Assembly (NCBI GenBank): GCA_016788785.1
Contig: JAEUSM010000012.1
Span: 62,001-126,000, forward strand
Reading direction: 5' to 3'
Length of the DNA: 64,000 nucleotides
DNA from: Candidatus Kapaibacterium sp.
GTDB lineage: Bacteria; Bacteroidota; Ignavibacteria; Kapaibacteriales; JAEUSM01
Part shown: in pieces, positions 19,661 through 51,159 of the stretch
How the letters are laid out: every line of letters starts with the position of its first letter
How positions within the stretch are numbered: the stretch's first letter is position 1
Position numbers and translations under genes: made by a program
The notes under the pieces: model-generated
What the model was told of the DNA's origin: nothing
What the model saw: the letters and a program-made list of their open reading frames with translations, nothing else
Database searches by the model: none

Positions 19661-21907
19661 CTATTTTTGACGAGCAGCTATCAAATTCAAGGCAGAACCA
19701 GCATAAAACCAATCAATTTGTTGTTGATTGAATGAATGTTTTACTTCTATTGTATTAGTAGACCCATCTTCATGAGTAATTGTGCCTGTTAGATTGACAC
19801 CCGGTGCAAAAGACTCAAGATTCAAGGCAAATTTATCACCTTCTTTGAACAAATCGTAATCAGCTGGGTGAACAAAAGTAAGAGGTAACATTCCTTGTTT
19901 TTTCAAATTCGTTTCGTGAATACGAGCAAATGATTTCACCAAGATAACTCTTCCACCCAAAAAACGAGGTTCCATTGCAGCATGTTCACGAGAAGAACCT
20001 TCTCCATAGTTCTCGTCACCAACGACAAACCAAGGGATGGAATTTGCTTTGTAATATCGAGCGACTGCAGGAACTTCTCCATATTCACCAGTTTTCGCAT
20101 TTTTTATGGAATTTGCTTTATCATTCGCTGCATTGATAGCACCAATGAACATATTATTGGAAATATTATCCAAATGTCCACGGAAACGTAACCACGGTCC
20201 AGCTGCAGAAATGTGATCTGTCGTACATTTTCCTTTTGCTTTGAAGAGTAGTTGTAAGTTTTTATAATCTGCAATGTCATTTTTCGCAAATGGAGTTAAT
20301 GCTTGAAGTCTATTAGAAGAATCAGCAATATTTACGGAAACTGAGCTACCGTCAACTGCAGGGGCTACATATCCTTCTGTATCTGGAACAAATCCTTTTG
20401 AAGGTAATTCATCTCCAGTTGGTGGTTGTAACTTCACACCATCAATAGTGTCAGTCATAAAATTGAACGTCAATTTTCCAGCAATTGCAAATGCAGTAAC
20501 TGTTTCCGGGGAAGCAACAAATGCATGTGTTTCAGGGTTGCCGTCATTACGACCAGTGAAGTTTCTATTGAAAGATGTTATGATAGAATTTCTATCTCCT
20601 TTTTCAACATCATGGCGTTTCCATTGTCCGATACATGGTCCACAAGCATTAGCAAGTACTACCCCACCAATTGATTCAATTTTTTGTAAAATTCCATCAC
20701 GTTCTATTGTTGCACGGACTTGTTCTGAACCAGGAGTTACAGTAAATTCTGATTTTGCTTTTAAATTGTTAGCAACTGCATATTCTGCAATTGATGCAAC
20801 ACGAGCCATGTCCTCATATGATGAGTTTGTACAAGAACCAATCAACGCTACTCGCAATTCTTCAGGCCAGTTATTAGCTTTCACAGCATCAATAAATTCC
20901 GAAAGAGTATGAGCTCGGTCAGGAGTAAATGGTCCGTTGATATATGGTTCTAACGTTGAAAGGTCAATATGGATTACTTGGTCGTAATATTTTTCGGGGT
21001 TTGCTTCGACTTCTGGGTCTGGACGTAAACAATCTTTGATGCCATTAGCAAGGTTTGCAATTTCCGAACGATCAGTTGATGCAAGATAACGACCCATAGA
21101 ATCATCGTAAGGGAATAATGACGTTGTTGCACCAATTTCTGCACCCATGTTACAGATAGTTCCTTTACCTGTTGCAGAGAAATTAGCACATCCTTCGCCA
21201 AAATACTCGATGATTGCCCCAGTTCCACCTTTTACCGTCGTAATACCTGCGAGCTTTAAAATAACATCTTTTGGTGACACCCAACCAGACATTTTTCCAG
21301 TTAATTTCACACCTATCAATTTCGGCATTTGTAGCTCCCAAGGCATTCCAGACATAACGTCCACTGCATCAGCACCACCAACACCAATTGCTATCATCCC
21401 CAAACCACCAGCATTCGGTGTATGAGAGTCAGTTCCAATCATCATCCCACCTGGGAAAGCATAGTTTTCCAAAACAACTTGGTGAATGATACCAGCACCT
21501 GGCTTCCAAAAGCCGATACCATATTTTTTAGAAACTGAACCTAAAAAGGAAAATACTTCTTCATTTTCAGTAAATGATTGAGCCAAATCACTTTTAGCAC
21601 CATGTTCTGCACGAATCAAATGATCACAATGTACTGTTGATGGAACAGCCACAGTTGGAATTCCTGCTGACATAAATTGCAACAACGCCATTTGAGCAGT
21701 TGCATCTTGCATTGCAACTCTATCTGGATTAAAATCTACATACGAAGCTCCACGAGTTGGTGTAGTTCCAACTTGATCTGGTGTAAAATGAGAATAAAGA
21801 ATTTTTTCCGCCAAAGTCATTGGTCTACCCAACAACTGTTTGGCTTGTTTGATTTTCTCAGGATATTCAGCATATACTCGCTGAATCATGTCTAAATTAT
21901 GAATCAT
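19661..21907 (-). CDS. acn: Aconitate hydratase (mitochondrial-type)
   Basis: This TCA-cycle 4Fe-4S enzyme interconverts citrate and isocitrate. I start at ATG 21907 ([19 protein letters not shown]). The in-frame extension to 22030 runs through the PBP2 gene and looks like basic junk. This gives 748 residues, the size of mitochondrial-type aconitases. Visible elements: [29 protein letters not shown], the cluster cysteines in [15 protein letters not shown] and [12 protein letters not shown], and the swivel-domain [21 protein letters not shown]. It is the last gene after Wzz-like and PBP2 genes (16 nt gap after PBP2), an unusual neighbourhood, and is followed by a strong terminator. Confidence 0.97.
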
Positions 21908-21923
21908 AGTTTTTCCAATATGT

Positions 21924-23780
21924 TTATAGTGTTTTGTTTTTTTGTTTCTTCTTGTCAGTTGGTATATTTTTTTGAGTTGCAATTGCAACTGTCGAAGTTT
22001 GTGCCTCAGAAAGTCGCTTGTGTTTGTCAAGATAAAATTTTGTCAATCGAGATGCAATTGGTGCAGCAACTGTAGCACCAAATCCAGCATTCTCTGCTAA
22101 AACGCAAATGGCAATTTTGGGATTTTCCATTGGTGCAAATGAAACAAACCACGAGTGGTCTTGCCCATGAGCATTTTGAGCAGTTCCAGTTTTACCGCAT
22201 AGTTTATACTCACCCAAACGAGCATTTGTAGCAGTTCCACCTCCAACATTGACTACGTCGTACATACCATTATGAATGATATCAAAAATTTCTTTTTTGA
22301 TAGGAAGTTCACGAGATTCAACTTCCATCGGGTCAAAGGAATTTGTTCGTTTATTATAAATTGCTTTCACAACGTGCGGTCTATTCAATATTCCTTTTGT
22401 TGCAATAGCAGAAGTATAGACTGCTAATTGTAGAGGCGTTACACCCAATTCCCCTTGGCCAATGCCAAGATTTACTAACACACCATTGGACCATTTACCT
22501 TTGCCAACGACTTTGTCATACCATGCTTTAGAAGGTAAAAGTCCTGCTTCTTCATTTGCAACGTCTATACCAGTTCTTTTTCCGAAGCCGAACATTTCAC
22601 CGTATTTGTAATACGTATCTAAACCAATTTCTAACCCTAACTTATAGAAAAATACATTTGAAGAAACATGAATAGCTTTTCTAGCGCCAATTGCACCATA
22701 AGCACCATGGTCTTTCCATGTTCTTCCTCCATAGGTAAAAGAACCATTACAAACAATTTTACCATCCAATGGTAGGATACCTTCGTTCATTGCTGCAATA
22801 ACCATCAACATCTTCCACGTTGAGCCTGGAGGATATTTGGTCATTATCACTCTGTCAAATAGTGGTTTGTGAGGATTGGTTGAAAGCTTGGCGTATTCGG
22901 AAGCACTTGTTCTTCCATTAAATATTTCTAAAGAGTAGTCAGGTTTTGAAACATATGCTAAAATTTCTCCAGTTGTTGGATCAATGGCTACAACAGCACC
23001 TCGTTTTCCATTGAGTAATTGCTCAGCTTCAAGTTGTAGATCTGAATCTATGGTTAATTGCAAATCAAAACCTTCAACAGCAGGAATTGTATTTTTTCCT
23101 TCATAAAAAGCAGACACCCTTTGTCCAAAGGCATTAACAGCAATAAATTCAGAACCTTTTTGCCCACGCAATAAACGTTCAAAAGCAGATTCGACACCAC
23201 CATTGCCAATTGGGTCACCAGGTCGGTAGAAATCGTCATTACGTTTTAATTGTGATTCACTAATTTCACGAGTATATCCAAGAAGATGGGAGAGATTTCC
23301 TTCGAATTCGTAAAATCTTCCAGATTCTACTGCAACGTCAACTCCCGGCAAATCTGCGAGATTTTCTTCAATGGAATTAGCTTGAACATGAGAAACGTCT
23401 TTGAGAATTGGGAAGGGTGTAAAGGGAGATTTGGTTTTAAATTTTTTATAATTTGATTGAAGTAATTGTACATCAACACCCAACAAGGTTGCTAAGGTTG
23501 GAAGCATTTCCTCGTCAAAATCGGCAGGAGTAACACGAATGACAAATGAGGGTTTATTATGTACAATCTTTCTTCCTTCTCTATCTAAGATAATACCTCG
23601 AAACGGAGTGTTGATTACCTCTTTAATCGCTTGAGTTTCTGTTTTGAGAAGGTACAAATTACCGTGAATAATTTGTAAATATGCTAATCGAACACTAAAC
23701 AACACACAAACACTGATAAAAAGTGTCAGGAATATCTTTGCTCTTAAAGAAGAGCCAAATTCATCTCTTCCTAATTCCAT
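21924..23780 (-). CDS. mrdA: Penicillin-binding protein 2 (peptidoglycan transpeptidase)
   Basis: This class B PBP of 618 residues cross-links peptidoglycan during cell elongation. It has one N-terminal transmembrane anchor ([21 protein letters not shown]). The dimerisation domain shows [24 protein letters not shown] and [16 protein letters not shown]. The transpeptidase domain carries all three active-site motifs: STWK (in [15 protein letters not shown]), SSN ([12 protein letters not shown]) and KTGT (CGKTGTAQN). The C-terminal tail is Lys-rich. The usual mreBCD/rodA neighbours are absent; it sits 6 nt after a Wzz-like gene and 16 nt before aconitase. Confidence 0.95.
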
Positions 23781-40679: not shown

Positions 40680-41798
40680 TTAATCTAAATACATTATTGC
40701 AGGTAAAGAAATTTCTACTGAAGTTCCAACACCTTTTTCACTTTTCACCATCATATAACCACCGTGAAGTTCAGCTGTTCTTTTGGCTATAATAAGTCCT
40801 AAACCAATTCCTTGTTGTTCATTTTCAAATCGACCAAATTGTGCAAAAGGTGCAATAGAGTTGATTTCCTCTTGTGACATCCCAATTCCTTTGTCAGATA
40901 TTGAAAGATGAAAAGAATTGTCTTTTAACCAACCCTTCATTTCAACAATTGTTCCCTCTTGAGAAAATTTGAAAGCATTATCTAAAAGCTCATCTAATAC
41001 CTTACCGTAATGCTGTGATGATAAAGTAACATAAAAATCTGTTACTTCAGCTTCAATAAGCAAATCGTTGAGTCTGTTGTATTTTTGTGCCTTTAATGGA
41101 GCTATATCATATGCCATTGCAGCTGGTTCATCGGTTTTAAATGAACGTAATTGATCTATTAATTTTTGAGAATTCGATGCAGCTTCAATTTGTGCATAAA
41201 AGAGGAAATTTTCAGTAATTCTTTGAAGTCTTCGTGCAGAAACTATAATATCATCTGTTAATTCAATAAGTAGTTCCTTCTCTATATCATCGATTATATT
41301 TTTAATTGTTCCTGCAGAATTGATGATACCATTAAGAGGAGTTCGAAACTCATGTGGAAGTGCAAAGGAAAGATTTTTTTCAATCCCTTCTTGACGAGTT
41401 TTTATTTTTTCGATGATTTTACTTCGTTTTTCCCATTGAGCATCAATAGAAGAGATTAATTCTTCACGGGTAAAAGGCTTAATCAAATAATCATCAGCAC
41501 CTTTTCCCATACCGGTACGAATGTCAATTTTATCAGCTCTGGCAGACAAAAATATGAACGGTATATCACTTGTTTGGGAATTAGCTCTAATTTGCTCTAA
41601 AAGTCCAAAACCATCTAAATTAGGCATAGAAACATCGCACAAAATCATATCAGGATGATATTTGTTTGCTTTTTCTAAGCCTTCTAAACCGTCTTGAGCA
41701 GTATAGACATTATATCCTTCAAATTCTAAAAGAGTTGCGGTACCTTCTAAAATAAATTCTGCATCATCGACAATTAAAATGGTTTTTTGAGAGCTCAT
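40680..41798 (-). CDS. REC-histidine kinase hybrid protein
   Basis: This 372-residue soluble signalling protein has an N-terminal receiver domain (residues 1-125) with IVDDAEF, phosphoacceptor Asp55 (ILCDVSMPNLDG) and Lys in YLIKPFTREEL. A HisKA dimerisation domain follows with PHEFRTPLNGI (His near 152) and an HATPase domain with ELLDNAFKFS (N box), DKGIGMS (G1) and GLGLIIAKRTAELHGG (G2). It has no membrane helix and no DNA-binding output. It is the last gene of a five-gene minus-strand unit, 12 nt after the larger kinase, and is a plausible phosphorelay partner for it. Confidence 0.9.
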   Translation of the reverse strand: MSSQKTILIVDDAEFILEGTATLLEFEGYNVYTAQDGLEGLEKANKYHPDMILCDVSMPNLDGFGLLEQIRANSQTSDIPFIFLSARADKIDIRTGMGKGADDYLIKPFTREELISSIDAQWEKRSKIIEKIKTRQEGIEKNLSFALPHEFRTPLNGIINSAGTIKNIIDDIEKELLIELTDDIIVSARRLQRITENFLFYAQIEAASNSQKLIDQLRSFKTDEPAAMAYDIAPLKAQKYNRLNDLLIEAEVTDFYVTLSSQHYGKVLDELLDNAFKFSQEGTIVEMKGWLKDNSFHLSISDKGIGMSQEEINSIAPFAQFGRFENEQQGIGLGLIIAKRTAELHGGYMMVKSEKGVGTSVEISLPAIMYLD

Positions 41799-41810: not shown

Positions 41811-44786
41811 TTAGGAAATCAATTCAGTTTGAGATTTAGATTCTAAAAGTATAGTAACGGTTGTACCATCACCAATAGTGGATTTGACAAAAATTTCTCC
41901 CCTATTTATCTCTATAAATTCCTTTGCTATGGATAAACCTAAGCCACTTCCAGAAATATTGGAAGTATTTGAAGCACGATAAAATGGAGAGTATATATTG
42001 TCAATTTCATCGGCAGGAATACCGATTCCATTGTCTTTAATTGTAGTGATTATGGTGTTATTCTGATTGGAAATATGTACTTCTACTAATGAATTAATAG
42101 GAGAATATGTAATACAATTCATTATTATATTTTGAATGGATTGACGTAACATGCTTTCATCTATTAGAACATAATGCACATCTCTATCTGTTGTAAAAGA
42201 AACAGTGATATTTTTTTGTTCAAAATGTGACTTATTATCTTCAATGATTCGCGTAACAAAATTATTAAACTCATGGAATTGTGGATTGAATCGTTCTTTA
42301 ATTCCTAATTTTGAAGACTGAACGATGAAATTATTCATCAGTTTTGTTAAATCTTCAACGCGAGATTTAATCTTACCAATTTCTATATTTAATTTTTCTT
42401 GTGTCATCTTTTGAGAATACACCTCAATTAACTCACAAGAAGTCAATATACCTGTTAAAGGAGTTCGAAATTCGTGGGAAACTGTTGTAACAAACTGATT
42501 TTGTAAAGAAGCAAGTTCACGTTCTTTTTCTAAGGTTCGTAATAATTCGGTTTCAATTTCTTTCCGTGATGTAATTTCGTAAGAAAAAATTCTATAATAA
42601 TTTGTTTCCGGTAGATAAAAGACACTTTGTTCAAATACTATACCATGAAATTCACTTTCTATAGTTAAAGGAAAGTTCGTTGTAGTAGAAATTTCTAAGT
42701 TTTTGAAAATATCATGAAATACTCCTTCGGTAGCAATCGAAGGAAATCGTTGGACTGCATATGGATTAATATAGATTGTATTCATCTCTGCGTCAATTTC
42801 CAAAATAATCATAGGTGTTTGTTCAGCAAATGAAGCCAAATGCTTTAATTGTTGTTCATCATTCTTTTCTTTAGAAATGTCAATAATGACACAAATGTAC
42901 CGAGATTGAAAATCAGAAATATAGTATTTACTTTGCTGAATTTGAACCCAAACAAATTCATTCTCTATAGGTGTTGTTAACTGAACATTGAACTTAAATA
43001 CAGTTCCATCATTTGCTTTATCCCATTGTTCAATCAATTTTGAATAAATTTCAGAAGATTCTATCGACATACTTTCACGAAGTATGTTTTTGCGTAAATC
43101 GTTAATTGATTCTAGTTGAAGAAGTTTTAAGGTAAATGGGTTAGTTCGTTCAAAAACAAATTGTTGATTTTCTTCTGGATAATACGAGTATTGAATTACA
43201 CCAATTGGCAGTAAATCTATCAACATACCTTGTAATTGATCAGATTCACGCAATTTGTGTTGAACTTCTTTTTGTATAGTGATATCAACTGCAGAACCTA
43301 CAATTTCTGTAGTTACATTATCAACGATTATTGGTTGGAACCAGAACAAAATGTATCGATTATTAAAATACATTTCATTTTGGATTGATTTTCCAGTAAA
43401 ACAATATTCTAATGAGGGTTGAAGACCTTTTCGAAGAGTTGTGTCAAAATGTTTATGAAAATACACTTCTTCTTTGACAGTAAGTCCTAATTCTTTTGCT
43501 AAAATACCTTCGCAAAACAGAATAACATAATATTTATTCTCTTTACGAATACGAAGCACTAAATTCAAAAGATTTTCAACTGTTGTTAGCAAATCAGCTT
43601 TCAAAGCTTTTGTTAATGCTAATTCGGCAATTTTCAGATTTGAAACATCAACCCCAATTTGTGTTAATGCATAAGGATTATTATTTTCATCAAAATCAGC
43701 ATAAAGAAAATTTTTCAACCAAATTTGTTCTCTAAAGTAGTTATAACCTCGATAATCTAATGTCATAACACTTTGAAAATTATTTAATGCCCAAGTATCA
43801 TATTGATTCTTTACCGCAGGCAAATCCTCTTCGTGAATATAACCTAATCGTTGTTCGGGTGTCAAATCCCTCAATACATCTACTGATGCTCCAAATTGTT
43901 TTTCGAAAGCGTGGTTGGAGAATTCGTAGGTGTTAGTAGAAATAATGTACCTTGTGATTGAAACAGGGAGATTATTGACTAAATCAAAAAACTTTTTCTC
44001 ATTTATCTTTAATGATTCTTCAACTAACTTTCTTGATTCTTCCTCATTCTTTTGAGCAGTAATATCTTTAAGGGTTATGAGAAATGATGAATGAGAGGAA
44101 AAACGAATTTTCTCTAAATTATAAATGAAATATCGAGTCTGATTATTAATGAATAGTTCAATTTCAAATTCATTATGAGGAATTTCAACAGTAAAAAACG
44201 TTGGATTAAGCATGAACTCATTCTTCACAACAAATTGATTGTGAATATCAATAAACAAAGAATTCTCAATTCTATTTTTTAGTAAAAAATAGTTTCTTGC
44301 TGAATCATTAACAAAAGTAATATTTCCACTTTCATCGACAGTTATAATACCATCTTTTATAGCATTAAAGGCTTGAGTTAATGAATTTTTTTGTTCAACT
44401 AAATCTTGCTCGAGTTTGTGCTTATGGAGAAGAATTTCAATGTTTATTTTTAACTCTTGAGCATCAATGGGTTTTTGAATATAACTGAATGAAGAAGTCG
44501 TTGTAATTCTTTCAATTTTGGTCGCATCAAAATTTGACAATAAGAAAATATGTGGAATTGAATATTGAGAATTTATTTTTGATGCTAAAGAAATACCATC
44601 AATTTCTTCACCCAAATTAATATCCATTAAAATGACTGAGGGAATTGATTTTTTTAAGTGTTGTAATGCTTCTTTTGAATTTCTTGCAATGGAAATATTC
44701 TTGTAACCTACCGTAAGTAGGATATATTTAGTATTCTGTGCAAGTACAAAGTCATCTTCTACTATCAGTATAGATTTTTCATTCAT
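41811..44786 (-). CDS. REC-multi-PAS sensor histidine kinase
   Basis: This 991-residue cytosolic kinase has an N-terminal receiver (1-125; ILIVEDDF, Asp55 in ILMDINLGEEIDG). Several PAS-type modules follow: about 130-245 (AFNAIKDGIITVDESGNITFV), 265-385 (FDLVNNLPVSITRYII ... ALTQIGVDVSNLK), 385-510 (phosphate-acceptor-free sensor region), 515-640 and 640-740. HisKA is TVSHEFRTPLTGILTSCELIE and HATPase has IQNIIMNCITYSP, KDNGIGIPADEIDNIYSPF and GSGLGLSIAKEFIE. No transmembrane segment is seen, so it senses an internal or redox signal. It lies between the LRR gene (43 nt) and the REC-kinase (12 nt). Confidence 0.9.
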   Translation of the reverse strand: MNEKSILIVEDDFVLAQNTKYILLTVGYKNISIARNSKEALQHLKKSIPSVILMDINLGEEIDGISLASKINSQYSIPHIFLLSNFDATKIERITTTSSFSYIQKPIDAQELKINIEILLHKHKLEQDLVEQKNSLTQAFNAIKDGIITVDESGNITFVNDSARNYFLLKNRIENSLFIDIHNQFVVKNEFMLNPTFFTVEIPHNEFEIELFINNQTRYFIYNLEKIRFSSHSSFLITLKDITAQKNEEESRKLVEESLKINEKKFFDLVNNLPVSITRYIISTNTYEFSNHAFEKQFGASVDVLRDLTPEQRLGYIHEEDLPAVKNQYDTWALNNFQSVMTLDYRGYNYFREQIWLKNFLYADFDENNNPYALTQIGVDVSNLKIAELALTKALKADLLTTVENLLNLVLRIRKENKYYVILFCEGILAKELGLTVKEEVYFHKHFDTTLRKGLQPSLEYCFTGKSIQNEMYFNNRYILFWFQPIIVDNVTTEIVGSAVDITIQKEVQHKLRESDQLQGMLIDLLPIGVIQYSYYPEENQQFVFERTNPFTLKLLQLESINDLRKNILRESMSIESSEIYSKLIEQWDKANDGTVFKFNVQLTTPIENEFVWVQIQQSKYYISDFQSRYICVIIDISKEKNDEQQLKHLASFAEQTPMIILEIDAEMNTIYINPYAVQRFPSIATEGVFHDIFKNLEISTTTNFPLTIESEFHGIVFEQSVFYLPETNYYRIFSYEITSRKEIETELLRTLEKERELASLQNQFVTTVSHEFRTPLTGILTSCELIEVYSQKMTQEKLNIEIGKIKSRVEDLTKLMNNFIVQSSKLGIKERFNPQFHEFNNFVTRIIEDNKSHFEQKNITVSFTTDRDVHYVLIDESMLRQSIQNIIMNCITYSPINSLVEVHISNQNNTIITTIKDNGIGIPADEIDNIYSPFYRASNTSNISGSGLGLSIAKEFIEINRGEIFVKSTIGDGTTVTILLESKSQTELIS

Positions 44787-44829: not shown

Positions 44830-47043
44830 CTAAAATGAGATTACAATCGTAGGAAACATGTTTTTTATCTTTTCCTTTTCGTAGTAATCAAATCGATTTC
44901 CCCACAAACTAATTTGTGATAATTGTGTTAATTGGAGTAATTCAACTGGAAGAAATGTAAGTTGATTGTTCGAAAGAAATAACTGAGTAAGTTTTTTTAG
45001 ATTTCCCAATTCGGGTGGTAATTTAGTAATTTTGTTCTTGTAAATATTCAGCTCAGTTAAATTACGAAGATTGCCAATTTCTTTTGGTAATGTCTGAATA
45101 GAATTTTGTTTCAAAGTTAATTGAACTAATTGTGTTACTAAACCAATTTCAGGCAATACAAAGCGTAAGTTTGAGTTAGTAAAATCAAGATGAGTAACCT
45201 CTTTACACAAAGATAACTTTTGGAATCCCTTCGAAATCCAGTATGAACCTAACTCAGTTGTAAGAGTATTGTTTTTGCAAAGTACAGTTACAACCTCACG
45301 GAAACTATCAGCACCTAAGGCTAAAACCATTTCTTTGAAGCGTTTAGTTAGCCTATATGCTGTATCAAAAAAAGTAGCATGATGAAATACTTCTTCAGTC
45401 TTAAAATTTGTACAAATGACATCAATAATGTCTCGTTCAACTATTTTATCACGCATTGAAGATTTCCAATGTGTAGTGAATGTTTCAAGAAAAATTTTGG
45501 ATGTATACTTTTGAATAATAGTAAACGCTTTTTTTCTTAATGAAGCTCTTTCGTGAAAGCAGAAAATACCCAATACTATGCCCATTATTTCTGGTGAACA
45601 GCCACAACTATCAATAGTATTAAGAGCAATTTTTACATTAGCAGCATCAGCATCAAAAAGGAGTCTTTTTAAATTCTCAGAGATTTTTGCTGTCGAGTTT
45701 TCTTCTAAAAATGCTTTCTCAATGTGAGGCAGTAACCATTCTAAATGCGGTTCGAAGGCAATTTTCAAACCTTCGCTATACTTTTGATAAGCCTCTTTAC
45801 CACTTCCAAATCCAGCAATGTAAAATTGCACTGTATGATCGAAATCTCGTTGAATTTTTACATCATAATCTTTTAGTCGTTGTTTTGCTTGTTCAATATC
45901 GAGATTTCTAAATCTCCCAGAAATATAAAAAACTGAACCAATAGGATGAAACTCTTCTTTGAAAGGATGTCCTAATAGATCAGAAAGAGCCAAAATACCG
46001 ATATTTCGTACTTCAATTACCGTATGGTCTAAAAAATCAAATAATTCCTCTATCGTAAAATGAATTTTTGCATATTCTACTGCTTCTATTGTGTTTTCTA
46101 AATACAGTGAAAAAAGTACCAATCTCCATCGTGCTTCTAATGAAGACTCTATAAATTTTCGAATTTGAAAATGTGCTTTTTTGATTGATTTACTTGTATC
46201 ATTGACAAAATGTAATTCGATATCAGGATTTTGTAATAAAGATGCCTCAGCAGGTATTGTGTCAATTGATAATGTTATTGAACGAAGTGAAGTATTTTTA
46301 GAAATGATTTGAAAGAAATCCTTCCAATCAATTGTTGAAACATTATGAATAATTACTGTTTGCAGGTTTGGAATAGATGCCAAAATTTCAATAGTTGAAG
46401 TAGACAGCAAAGAATGACAACTTGAAAGATTTAGTTCAATTAATGATTTTAAAGTTAGAATTGAATTTGGTAACGAAATTAAAGGATTATGGCTAACATC
46501 TAATGAAACTAAGTTTGGTAAACTGCCTAAAGAATCTGGTAAGTATGTTAGGTTATTGTTGGATACATTCAAAGTGGTTAGATTGCGTAACCCACCAATC
46601 TCCTCTGGCAACGTATGAAGTTTGTTTGAAGCCAAAGAACACTCTTGTAATTTTATTAATTTTCCTAATTCTGATGGGATAGACTCTAAAGAATTATTAT
46701 TCAACTGTAATTCAACCAAATCTTGCAACTTCCCAATTTCTTCAGGAATTATCGTTAAAAGATTGTTACTTACATCCAATCGTTGCAGATAAAACAAATT
46801 ACAAACATCAGAAGAAATCGACTCTAATTTGTTCTCACTCAAATTGAGTTCTAAAATATTTTTTAGCGAATAAAATTCCTTAGGTATAGAATTTATAGCA
46901 TTTTGACGAACATCTAAATGAAATAGATTTGGTAAACTATCTATTTCCAAAGGAATAGTTTGAAACCTTCGTTTACGAAGCTGAACTTTAAAGACATTTT
47001 CAGGATCAGAAACTATTTCTTTAAGCGATGTAAATGTTTTCAT
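44830..47043 (-). CDS. Leucine-rich-repeat protein with internal BRCT-like and HEAT-like region
   Basis: This 737-residue protein has no signal peptide, so it is probably cytosolic. Residues about 20-255 are bacterial LRRs (for example LDVSNNLLTIIPEEIGKLQ, LNVSNNNLTYLPDSLGSLP). A helical, HEAT-like stretch (295-360) follows, then a segment at 366-440 that reads like a BRCT domain (GSVFYISGRF, AKQRLKDYDVKIQ, FYIAGFGSGKEAYQKY, LEWLL). More helices (450-600) precede a second LRR block (615-725). It overlaps the RND pump gene by 23 nt, implying translational coupling, and is followed by two kinase genes. LRR-flanked architecture suggests a protein-interaction scaffold; function unknown. The BRCT call is by eye. 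Confidence 0.75.
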   Translation of the reverse strand: MKTFTSLKEIVSDPENVFKVQLRKRRFQTIPLEIDSLPNLFHLDVRQNAINSIPKEFYSLKNILELNLSENKLESISSDVCNLFYLQRLDVSNNLLTIIPEEIGKLQDLVELQLNNNSLESIPSELGKLIKLQECSLASNKLHTLPEEIGGLRNLTTLNVSNNNLTYLPDSLGSLPNLVSLDVSHNPLISLPNSILTLKSLIELNLSSCHSLLSTSTIEILASIPNLQTVIIHNVSTIDWKDFFQIISKNTSLRSITLSIDTIPAEASLLQNPDIELHFVNDTSKSIKKAHFQIRKFIESSLEARWRLVLFSLYLENTIEAVEYAKIHFTIEELFDFLDHTVIEVRNIGILALSDLLGHPFKEEFHPIGSVFYISGRFRNLDIEQAKQRLKDYDVKIQRDFDHTVQFYIAGFGSGKEAYQKYSEGLKIAFEPHLEWLLPHIEKAFLEENSTAKISENLKRLLFDADAANVKIALNTIDSCGCSPEIMGIVLGIFCFHERASLRKKAFTIIQKYTSKIFLETFTTHWKSSMRDKIVERDIIDVICTNFKTEEVFHHATFFDTAYRLTKRFKEMVLALGADSFREVVTVLCKNNTLTTELGSYWISKGFQKLSLCKEVTHLDFTNSNLRFVLPEIGLVTQLVQLTLKQNSIQTLPKEIGNLRNLTELNIYKNKITKLPPELGNLKKLTQLFLSNNQLTFLPVELLQLTQLSQISLWGNRFDYYEKEKIKNMFPTIVISF
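45724..45948 (-). other. BRCT-like segment inside the LRR protein
   Basis: Codons for residues 366-440 of the LRR protein. The order of hydrophobic strands, the Gly positions (GSVF..SG and AGFGSGK) and the closing LEWLL follow the DNA-ligase-type BRCT pattern (G-fvltG, GsK-kA, efl-ll). This is visual similarity only. Confidence 0.45.
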
Positions 47044-50000
47044 TTTGAATTTTTGGTTTCTTATTAAATGTTAGAATAAGATATAATGCCGGAATAACAT
47101 ATAAGGTAATAATGGTCGACACTAACATACCTCCAACGACAGCAATTCCCATTGAAACCCTACTTTCAGCTCCAGCTCCTAATGCTAAAGCTACTGGTAA
47201 AAATCCTAATATTGTTGACAAAGAAGTCATTAGAATTGGTCTAAATCGAGAAATTGTTGCCTCAAATACTGCATCATATAGTGTTAATCCTTCATTATAT
47301 TTTGCATTGGCAAATTCTACTATAAGTATTCCATTTTTTGTAACTAAACCTATAAGCATAATTATTCCAATTTGAGAAAATATGTTCAAGGTTTGATTGA
47401 ATACATACAGTGATAAAATTGCTCCAAATAAAGCTAATGGTACTGTAAAGAGTATTATAATTGGATATCGAAAGCTTTCAAATTGAGCACTAAGTGTTAG
47501 ATAAATCAATAGTAGGGCTAATACAAAAACAAAAAGCAATCCAGAAGAACTTTCTGCAAAATCTCGAGAAGGTCCATCTAATGAAGTACGGAAATCATCG
47601 CCTAATACAGATGCTTTGATTTTATCCATTTCCTGCAGTCCATCTCCGATTGTTTTTCCGGGAGCTAAACCAGCCGACACTGTTGCAGAAACAAATCTGT
47701 TATAGCGAAAAAGTTGGGGAGGTGAAACAGATTCTGAAAAAGTAACTAAGTTGTCTAAACGAACTAACGAGCCGTTAGTAGAACGAACAAATAGATTGGC
47801 AATATCTGTAGGTTTTGAAGAAGAATTTTTTATCACCTCTCCAAAAACATAATATTGTTTTCCATTCATAGTAAATTTACTGTAACGCAATCCTGAAAAC
47901 GCAAATTGAATACATTCTGCAATCGCAATAGGTGATACACCAGCTAATGTTGCATATTCACGATTAATACTCAAATTCACTTCTGGTTTTGTAAACTTTA
48001 AATTCACATCAACTGTTGAAAAGGTAGGGTTTTTTCCAGCTTCTTCTAAAAAAGAAGGAAGAATTTTTTTCAATTGCTCCAAAGTTGGAGCTTGAAGAAT
48101 ATATTGAATTGGAAGTCCACTATTCCTTTCACCAATTGTAGGTTCTTGAGTTGGAAAACTCTTTGCAAACGAATAATTACGAAGTGGTCCATTCAATGAT
48201 GAAACTATTTGGTCTTGCGAACGTTGACGCTTCGTAGGATCTGTTAAAATTATAATAGACATTCCAGAATTTACTGCTGTAGCACCTCCCATTCCTGGTG
48301 CAGTGATAGAGATGATTGCTTCAGATTCGGGAATGATTTTTTTCAAATCTGAGGATAATGAATACACATATCCATCCATTTGTTCATACGATGTCCCTTC
48401 AGGTGCTGTTGACATAATTCGCAAACGACTTCTATCTTCTAATGGAGCTAATTCACTTTTTAATTGTGTATATAAGAGAACAAAAGAGATACAAGCTACA
48501 ACTAAAATAATAACACCCAAAATAGGCTTTTTCAGAAAAGAAGTAAGTGTTTTACTGAAAAAAGAAGTAATTGATATAAATATTGGTTCAGTAACTTTAT
48601 ACAACCAATTTTGGGAGGTTGAATGTTTTAATAACTTCGAACATAACATTGGGGTTAACGTCAATGCAACAAACGCAGAGATTATTACAGCACCACTAAT
48701 GACGATTGCGAATTCTCGAAATAGTCGTCCAGCAAGACCACCTAAGAATATTACTGGTAAAAACACCACAACTAATGCAATTGTTGTTGCTATTATGGCA
48801 AAAAATATCTCTTTAATCCCTAAAAAGGATGCCTCTTTCGGTGAGAGTCCACTTTCAACCTTACTATAGATATTTTCTAAGACAACTATTGCATCATCAA
48901 CGACAATTCCAATTGATAATACAATTCCCAACAGTGTAAGTATATTGATGGAAAAATTGAAAAGATACATAATGAAAAATGTACCGATTAACGAAATTGG
49001 AATAGCAGTAATTGGAATAAGGGTTGAACGCCATTCTCGCAGAAACAAGAAAATGATGAGTATGACTAATCCTAAAGCAATTAAAATTGTTTCGCCAACT
49101 TCAACAATCGCAGCTTTCACAAATTCAGTTGAGTCAAATCCTAAGGAAATTGAAACATCTTTTGGAACTTCTTTTCTAAATTGTTCTATTCGTTTGTTTG
49201 TTTCATTGGCAATGTCCACAGAGTTTGCACCCGACTGTGCTACAACTGCAATTCCCAACATGGGTTGTAGATTTCTTCTGAGAAGTACTCGTTCATTTTC
49301 GGGTAGTAATTTTGCATAACCAACATCAGAAAGTCGAACGATACTTTTTGAATCTGACAGCAAAATCAATGAATTAAAATCTTCTTCTGTTTTTAACTCT
49401 GCTGAGGTTTTTACTGATAATTCTGTTGTGGATCCTTCTATTCTTCCACTAGGCAAATCAACATTTTGTCTATCTAATGCAAGGCGAATATCTTGTGGTG
49501 TTAATTTATATAACGACATTTTTAATGGGTCAAAAAACAGTTTCATAGCGTACCGTTTTTCACCCCAAACTCTAACCTCAGAAACACCTTGAATCGTCTG
49601 TAACCGATCTTTTAGTTCTACAGCAATATCATTAAGTGAAAGCAATGAACGTTCTTTGCTGTAGATGTTATAAAAAACAATCGGGTCGTTATTAGCATCA
49701 GATTTAGAAACAATTGGGACTTCAGCATCTTTTGGCAAATTCCTTACCGCAGATGAAACCTTGTCACGCACATCATTTGCAGCCTCATCAAGATCTACCC
49801 CCAATTCAAATTCTACACGAATTGAAGAACGTTGTTCCCGACTTGTTGAAGTAATTGAGCGAATTCCATTTATACCGTTAATTGCATCTTCTAATGGAAG
49901 AGTTATTTGTGATTCTATTACCTCGGAACTAGCACCTGGATATGATGCTGCGACATTGATAATTGGAGATTCTGTGATTGGAAATTGGCGTATACCCAAA

Positions 50001-50092
50001 AAACGAAAACCAATTACACCAAATAAAATTATAACAAGTGAAAATACTAATGTAAGTACGGGTCTTTGAATTGAAACACTTGATAGACTCAT
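47021..50092 (-). CDS. RND-family multidrug efflux pump (HAE1/AcrB type)
   Basis: This 1023-residue inner-membrane proton antiporter has the twelve-helix RND layout. N-terminus: SIQRPVLTLVFSLVIILFGVIGF. TM4 has GIVVDDAIVVLENI with the proton-relay Asp pair, and TM10 has GLVTKNGILIVEFANAKYNEG with the Lys. The EFAIVISGAVIISAFVALTLTPMLCS motif is typical, and periplasmic porter domains are full length. It exports drugs, dyes or lipophilic compounds with the adaptor encoded just upstream (4-nt ATGA overlap) and an outer-membrane TolC channel not found here. The following LRR gene begins inside its 3' end. Confidence 0.95.
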   Translation of the reverse strand: MSLSSVSIQRPVLTLVFSLVIILFGVIGFRFLGIRQFPITESPIINVAASYPGASSEVIESQITLPLEDAINGINGIRSITSTSREQRSSIRVEFELGVDLDEAANDVRDKVSSAVRNLPKDAEVPIVSKSDANNDPIVFYNIYSKERSLLSLNDIAVELKDRLQTIQGVSEVRVWGEKRYAMKLFFDPLKMSLYKLTPQDIRLALDRQNVDLPSGRIEGSTTELSVKTSAELKTEEDFNSLILLSDSKSIVRLSDVGYAKLLPENERVLLRRNLQPMLGIAVVAQSGANSVDIANETNKRIEQFRKEVPKDVSISLGFDSTEFVKAAIVEVGETILIALGLVILIIFLFLREWRSTLIPITAIPISLIGTFFIMYLFNFSINILTLLGIVLSIGIVVDDAIVVLENIYSKVESGLSPKEASFLGIKEIFFAIIATTIALVVVFLPVIFLGGLAGRLFREFAIVISGAVIISAFVALTLTPMLCSKLLKHSTSQNWLYKVTEPIFISITSFFSKTLTSFLKKPILGVIILVVACISFVLLYTQLKSELAPLEDRSRLRIMSTAPEGTSYEQMDGYVYSLSSDLKKIIPESEAIISITAPGMGGATAVNSGMSIIILTDPTKRQRSQDQIVSSLNGPLRNYSFAKSFPTQEPTIGERNSGLPIQYILQAPTLEQLKKILPSFLEEAGKNPTFSTVDVNLKFTKPEVNLSINREYATLAGVSPIAIAECIQFAFSGLRYSKFTMNGKQYYVFGEVIKNSSSKPTDIANLFVRSTNGSLVRLDNLVTFSESVSPPQLFRYNRFVSATVSAGLAPGKTIGDGLQEMDKIKASVLGDDFRTSLDGPSRDFAESSSGLLFVFVLALLLIYLTLSAQFESFRYPIIILFTVPLALFGAILSLYVFNQTLNIFSQIGIIMLIGLVTKNGILIVEFANAKYNEGLTLYDAVFEATISRFRPILMTSLSTILGFLPVALALGAGAESRVSMGIAVVGGMLVSTIITLYVIPALYLILTFNKKPKIQNENIYIA

Positions 50093-51159
50093 ATCATCCT
50101 TTCAATAAGTTTGATAATAACGGGCATATTGGGCTTCAAATATGGTAAACCTGTTGTTATTACAGTATCTCCTATTGTTAATCCAGAGAGTATTTCAATA
50201 TCATAGGCAGTTCGTAATCCAGTTGAAACTGATACTAACTTTGCCTTTCCATTTTTTACAACGTATAAATTTGATTCCTTGGAACTACCTACTAACGCTA
50301 TTGTTGGTACTTTTACTAAAGAAATTGCTTGCTGTTCCATTTGAACGACTGTTGTAGAGCCTACAAAAACTTGTTCTTTGGTTACAAACTTTGCACGAAT
50401 TGTTATAGATTTTGTGAATTCATCAATTGAAGGTTGTACTGATTCTATTGTTGCTTTTATTGGTTGATTGACATTTGAAACGATGATATCAACCGTGTTT
50501 CCAATTTTAACTGAATTTGACTGTTTTTCAGATATTTTAAACTCCGCTAATAAATCATTGGTAGAAAATACAGTTGTTATTGGAGTTCCTGTTGAAACAA
50601 ACGAACCTGAAGACACCAATTTTGTTGAAACTGTTCCACTAAATGGAGCAACAATATTCATTTTAGATTTTCTGATTTTGAATAGCTCAATTTCTGCTTC
50701 TAATTGTTCTAACTCAGTTTCTAATTGTTCAATAATTTCTGAGCTAACACCATTTTTATGAAAAAGTAATCGTTGTCGTTCTAACTTACTTTTTAAAAAA
50801 TCTGACATCTTTGTACGCTTTTCAATTTCTGCATTCACTTCACGTTGGTCAATTGTTGCAAGCAATTGCCCTTTGCTAACTTTTTGACCGTCTCGAAAAT
50901 TCACAGTTCTCAAGATTCCAGCAACTTCAGATGTAATGGTTGCTGTTTCACGAGCAATGATTAGGGCAGGGTATTGTTGTACTTTAGCACTTTTGATTGT
51001 ATCAACGACTAACGTGTTGACAGAAAGTGGAGGTTGTTTCATTGGAGAATCTTTTTTTGTACTTCCGATAAGTACACTATCTTTACTCAAATAATTGTAT
51101 CCAATTACTACACAAATACCGATAATCACTGTGATTGGAATGAGAATTGTTTTCTTCAT
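50089..51159 (-). CDS. RND efflux periplasmic adaptor (membrane fusion protein, HlyD/AcrA family)
   Basis: This 356-residue protein is anchored by an N-terminal helix (TILIPITVIIGICVVIGYNYL). A lipoyl/barrel-sandwich half is visible (ETATITSEVAGILRTVNFRDGQKVSKGQLLATID). A coiled-coil hairpin follows (about 115-165), then the second sandwich half (MNIVAPFSGTVSTKLVSSGSFV). The beta-barrel and membrane-proximal domain end in GLTIGDTVITTGLPYLKPNMPV. It bridges the RND pump encoded next (4-nt overlap) to an outer-membrane channel. No lipobox is present. A TATATTTG promoter box is only 4 nt upstream of its ATG. Confidence 0.94.
   Translation of the reverse strand: MKKTILIPITVIIGICVVIGYNYLSKDSVLIGSTKKDSPMKQPPLSVNTLVVDTIKSAKVQQYPALIIARETATITSEVAGILRTVNFRDGQKVSKGQLLATIDQREVNAEIEKRTKMSDFLKSKLERQRLLFHKNGVSSEIIEQLETELEQLEAEIELFKIRKSKMNIVAPFSGTVSTKLVSSGSFVSTGTPITTVFSTNDLLAEFKISEKQSNSVKIGNTVDIIVSNVNQPIKATIESVQPSIDEFTKSITIRAKFVTKEQVFVGSTTVVQMEQQAISLVKVPTIALVGSSKESNLYVVKNGKAKLVSVSTGLRTAYDIEILSGLTIGDTVITTGLPYLKPNMPVIIKLIERMI

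Follow-up and report, generated by a model that had tools for sequence, protein, structure and literature searches.

A gene in the 64,000 nt stretch of Candidatus Kapaibacterium sp. DNA analysed here (the window) encodes a protein, P0001, in which a single BRCT domain lies between two blocks of leucine-rich repeats (LRRs), with a helical stretch on either side of it. The protein is probably a cytosolic, non-enzymatic scaffold or adaptor, in which two LRR solenoids and helical spacers would hold a BRCT of the ligase/RFC1 type, and it may be a reduced, stand-alone relative of WGR-TPR-LRR-BRCT-LRR proteins. A scaffold is the most likely role because searches of the Pfam and NCBIfam families found no catalytic family in P0001. 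Known domains are combined here in an unusual new way, without amounting to a new kind of system.

The reading frame on the minus strand is intact, with no interruption between its coordinates. The domain layout, the neighbouring genes and the related genes of one other genome (G325) are listed in the table.

Table. Positions of the LRR-BRCT gene, its domains and neighbours in the window, and of the related gene cluster in genome G325.
Feature	Position	Strand	Residues	Remarks
LRR-BRCT ORF (P0001)	44830..47043	(-)	737 aa	LRR - helical - BRCT - helical - LRR
P0001 N-terminal LRR block	46198..46998	(-)	~16-282	23-residue repeats; Pfam LRR_8/LRR_14 and repeat listing
P0001 first helical stretch	45964..46185	(-)	~287-360	boundaries approximate; alignment with G325 proteins and low-confidence helices in single-sequence model
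P0001 single BRCT	45724..45948	(-)	366-440	
P0001 second helical stretch	45208..45723	(-)	~441-612	alignment with G325 proteins
P0001 C-terminal LRR block	44890..45207	(-)	~613-718	
Membrane-fusion protein (HlyD type)	50089..51159	(-)		first gene of putative operon
RND efflux permease (ACR_tran)	47021..50092	(-)		upstream of LRR-BRCT gene
Receiver-PAS-histidine kinase	41811..44786	(-)		43 bases downstream of LRR-BRCT gene
Receiver-histidine kinase	40680..41798	(-)		last gene of same-strand run; gap 12 bases
G325 cluster	L019:4320-13096 (G325:C27, ~99.3-108.1 kb)			P0003, P0002, 317-aa unknown, MoxR-like AAA_5 ATPase, DUF2201 VWA
P0003 (G325)				longer copy; WGR - TPR - LRR - helical - BRCT - helical - LRR
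P0002 (G325)				short copy; LRR - helical - BRCT-like - helical - LRR

Both ends of P0001, described as leucine-rich in the initial annotation, match Pfam LRR families strongly (LRR_8, 125 bits; LRR_14, 121 bits). The tandem LxxLxLxxNxL repeats score over the LRR family cut-off, and regular 23-residue repeat starts were listed at residues 40-178 and 639-708. The repeats are of the same 23-residue class as those of SHOC2-like and Leptospira LRR proteins (LIC11098 and others), which are the strongest PDB sequence matches; unlike in P0001, neither a BRCT nor a helical insertion is matched between the LRR blocks by these hits. Type III effector names from NCBIfam were matched via the LRRs only, far under their cut-offs, and were rejected. 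Elsewhere in the genome of the window, LRR_8 matches just one locus, in a 192-aa frame (L183, G000:C18:96756-96929). Neither helical stretch matches a Pfam family, and Pfam finds no WGR domain in P0001. The second helical stretch includes NVKIALNTI (469-477), which is common to both G325 relatives. The domain limits originally proposed for the BRCT were retained, and the strings on which that proposal was based were located at residues 369-376 (GSVFYISG), 413-421 (GSGKEAYQK) and 434-438 (LEWLL). Of the BRCT elements, beta1 includes S375-G376, alpha2 begins at about 415 and alpha3 includes W436.

The Pfam BRCT model (PF00533; curated cut-off 21.3 bits) matches residues 369-421 of the whole protein at 13.4 bits (E = 0.09), and the excised fragment at 17.5 bits (E = 0.005); in the genome scan the score was 16.9 bits. 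All of these are under the cut-off. A profile built solely from DNA-ligase BRCTs scored 10.7 bits on P0001; the middle region, shuffled 2,000 times, reached at most 4.4 bits, and the other frames of the window at most 3.4 bits. Compared by hhalign with a ligase BRCT alignment, the fragment alone gave 89.6% probability over 70 aligned columns, rising to 97.0% (E = 1e-10) when it was aligned with P0002. The joint P0001 and P0002 profile, searched against all PDB sequences, placed the human RFC1 BRCT first (E = 0.002) and LigA next behind it, with one designed protein between them. As a single-sequence PDB query, the fragment returned unrelated chains on top and RFC1 fifth (E = 0.38); the domain has diverged too far for a search of that type. 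Within the class, the best non-self BLAST match of the middle region is the BRCT of a DNA ligase (L006, E = 0.003), and a second ligase BRCT occurs lower down (L009, E = 0.07). A profile of three proteins (A2) had matches in 138 of the phylum's 396 genomes, mostly at model positions ~70-145, and the weakly matching loci that were opened (L024-L051) proved to be ligase BRCTs in 28 of 28 cases. The signature residues G376 (after beta1) and W436 (alpha3) are present, and the GG turn before beta2 is DYD.

The single-sequence model of the whole protein left residues 366-440 unfolded (pLDDT 20-35) and the middle of the protein uninformative. A model of residues 356-450, made with 17 ligase BRCTs from viral contigs in the alignment, reached a pLDDT of 88, and its predicted order of elements is that of a BRCT fold (b1-a1-b2-b3-a2-b4-a3). 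Foldseek searches of PDB with this model gave LigA (E = 5e-5) and the RFC1 BRCT (1.7 A, 25% identity) as top matches, followed by Dbf4, TopBP1, XRCC1 and others, nearly all of them BRCT proteins. Having ligase BRCTs in its alignment makes the model partly circular; the sequence evidence is independent of it.

The BRCT fold inferred in the initial annotation is accordingly supported by sequence profiles, relatives and, with the circularity just noted, the model. That the resemblance is accidental, and that the region has some other fold, is scarcely credible. The low single-sequence scores in Pfam and PDB, and the failure of the single-sequence model at these residues, are what such a reading could draw on, but the independent profile, relative and fold evidence converges on BRCT, with nothing in it indicating a different fold, and P0003 carries a BRCT of curated level at the same place (23.5 bits, over the Pfam cut-off). 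Judged by these comparisons, residues 366-440 are homologous to BRCT domains beyond chance.

Bacterial BRCTs had been described as largely confined to DNA ligase and a few DNA-associated proteins, and in the order to which the window belongs they are indeed essentially ligase domains: a BRCT over the cut-off was found in 108 of 119 genomes, nearly always in LigA-sized frames and about once per genome. A weak extra match (20.3 bits) outside ligase lies in a 109-aa frame with a stop (G025:C67:38838-38999). The BRCT of P0001 shares with those of LigA and RFC1 (PF00533), which are its best profile and fold matches, the single domain, the strand-helix order of the model and a TG/SG ending beta1. 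It differs from them in lying between LRR blocks and outside a DNA enzyme, in the loss of the GG turn and of the pocket Arg, and in its low similarity (~20% identity, below the Pfam cut-off).

From its residues, phosphate reading by this BRCT is possible, with only part of the pocket kept. The alignments pair S375-G376, which closes beta1, with the T/S-G of LigA and RFC1; K416 falls at the beginning of alpha2, displaced in them by one or two positions. Where ligase BRCTs have an invariant Arg (column R19 of alignment A4), which in the RFC1 alignment is the R of 'IER', P0001 has I383. In P0002 and P0003, V-G and L-G take the place of S/T-G. In RFC1, the S/T-G, the Arg and the Lys belong to the phosphate pocket. 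The domain might then bind a phosphoprotein, for example one active in signalling, or DNA ends that bear a 5' phosphate, with the LRRs recruiting a partner there, as RFC1 and ligase BRCTs do. This is an unlikely reading. It would agree with the Ser-Gly and Lys residues, with the phosphate/DNA-binding RFC1 and LigA BRCTs as best profile and fold matches, with the two histidine kinases downstream in the gene run, and with the precedent of single BRCTs, which can bind phosphopeptides or DNA phosphate (reviewed in PMC10386641). The replacement of the invariant Arg, the offset of the Lys and the absence of S/T-G from both relatives argue against it. Of the phosphopeptide- or protein-scaffold module first suggested for the BRCT-LRR protein, the scaffold is plausible and phosphopeptide reading is not established, the pocket Arg being lost and the relatives being without the Ser/Thr.

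Among 396 genomes of the phylum, proteins of the same domain order were found in only one other, G325, where two lie side by side, and only G325 gave matches across the whole middle region of P0001. The adjacent P0003/P0002 pair is followed by the 317-aa protein, the MoxR-like AAA_5 ATPase and the DUF2201 VWA protein, so that P0003 lies upstream of the MoxR-like ATPase and VWA genes. P0003 has a WGR domain (55 bits, Pfam) and TPRs, both absent from P0001; the Pfam BRCT model finds no match in the corresponding region of P0002. All three proteins share the order LRR - helical - BRCT - helical - LRR and an NVxxAL motif after the BRCT. P0001 and P0003 align end to end (E = 6e-19), with the LRRs contributing much of the score, and the middle region of P0001 is only ~18-23% identical to those of the G325 relatives; common ancestry with these proteins over the full length is suggested by the sequences. 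The G325 protein turned up in a single one of the 250 genomes searched in its genus, and the family is therefore sporadic.

BLAST with P0001 in 60 relatives found nothing outside its own genome. Searches of genome contigs and viral contigs with P0001, a relative or the three-protein alignment gave no relatives, a plasmid search gave none, and a phage search returned only LRR matches. Weak BLAST hits in L007, L014 and L015 lay in unrelated frames, and a long weak profile hit in G583 was a RecN-like ATPase; these were discarded. Among the papers searched, none described a bacterial BRCT-LRR protein; the nearest case joins a BRCT or a WGR domain to YwqG-like domains (PMC4275035). Of the initial view of the BRCT-LRR sandwich as an unusual architecture, the sandwich itself and its rarity stand, but it is not unique, since two G325 proteins have the same order.

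The cluster in G325 raises a further reading, in which P0001 would be a conflict or defence sensor, a satellite of MoxR-VWA-WGR systems, its LRRs recognising an invader or effector and its BRCT and helical parts signalling. The G325 relatives adjoin MoxR-like ATPase and VWA genes, as in the MoxR-vWA ternary systems proposed as conflict systems (PMC7159879; that paper mentions LRR once and WGR never), they are sporadic, and P0003 has a weak PADLOC match (WGR_XIII). P0001 itself has no PADLOC match, there are no MoxR or VWA partners near it, and it sits among efflux and two-component genes with no defence gene beside it. No WGR over the cut-off and no DUF2201 (a VWA family) were found in the genome of the window, and a system of the G325 type is therefore absent here. 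A sensor of this kind is clearly unlikely.

The LRR-BRCT gene directly follows an RND efflux pump, and its first 23 bases are shared with the 3' end of the permease gene (47021-47043). Downstream of the best RND matches in the loci of 20 relatives, about nine have a separate ORF of outer-membrane-channel size and about four more a long ORF that runs on without a break from the permease; the three separate ORFs checked were all of the OEP family, and no LRR gene was found in this position in the 20 loci. Because the RND loci of relatives carry channel-size (OEP) ORFs there, the LRR-BRCT gene occupies the slot where a channel gene usually sits. The MFP-RND pair of the window (47021-51159) is without the outer-membrane channel gene that many relatives have next. 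The GC content of the LRR-BRCT gene is 0.308, compared with 0.346 for the window, and is similar to that of the adjacent kinase gene (0.294). Elsewhere in the window, an aconitase-like ORF (19661-22030; TTG start as listed) overlaps a PBP2-like ORF (21924-23780) by ~107 bases, and its actual start is probably more internal.

As a scaffold, P0001 would present partner-binding surfaces on its LRR solenoids and helical spacers, and the BRCT held between the solenoids would be a further docking module, for a protein, a phosphorylated ligand or a DNA end. The larger proteins of which it may be a reduced relative accompany MoxR-like ATPase and VWA proteins. Placed in an efflux-pump and histidine-kinase run, it presumably acts with the products of those genes or is merely co-expressed with them. 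That it is a phosphate-reading adaptor coupling the two-component pathway to the efflux pump is highly unlikely; if true, a BRCT would serve signalling, not DNA repair, in bacteria. A BRCT between LRR solenoids, together with a WGR-bearing cousin beside MoxR and VWA genes, suggests that the domain has been recruited into scaffold-like proteins, and P0001 offers a small, testable case of what a bacterial BRCT can bind outside DNA repair.
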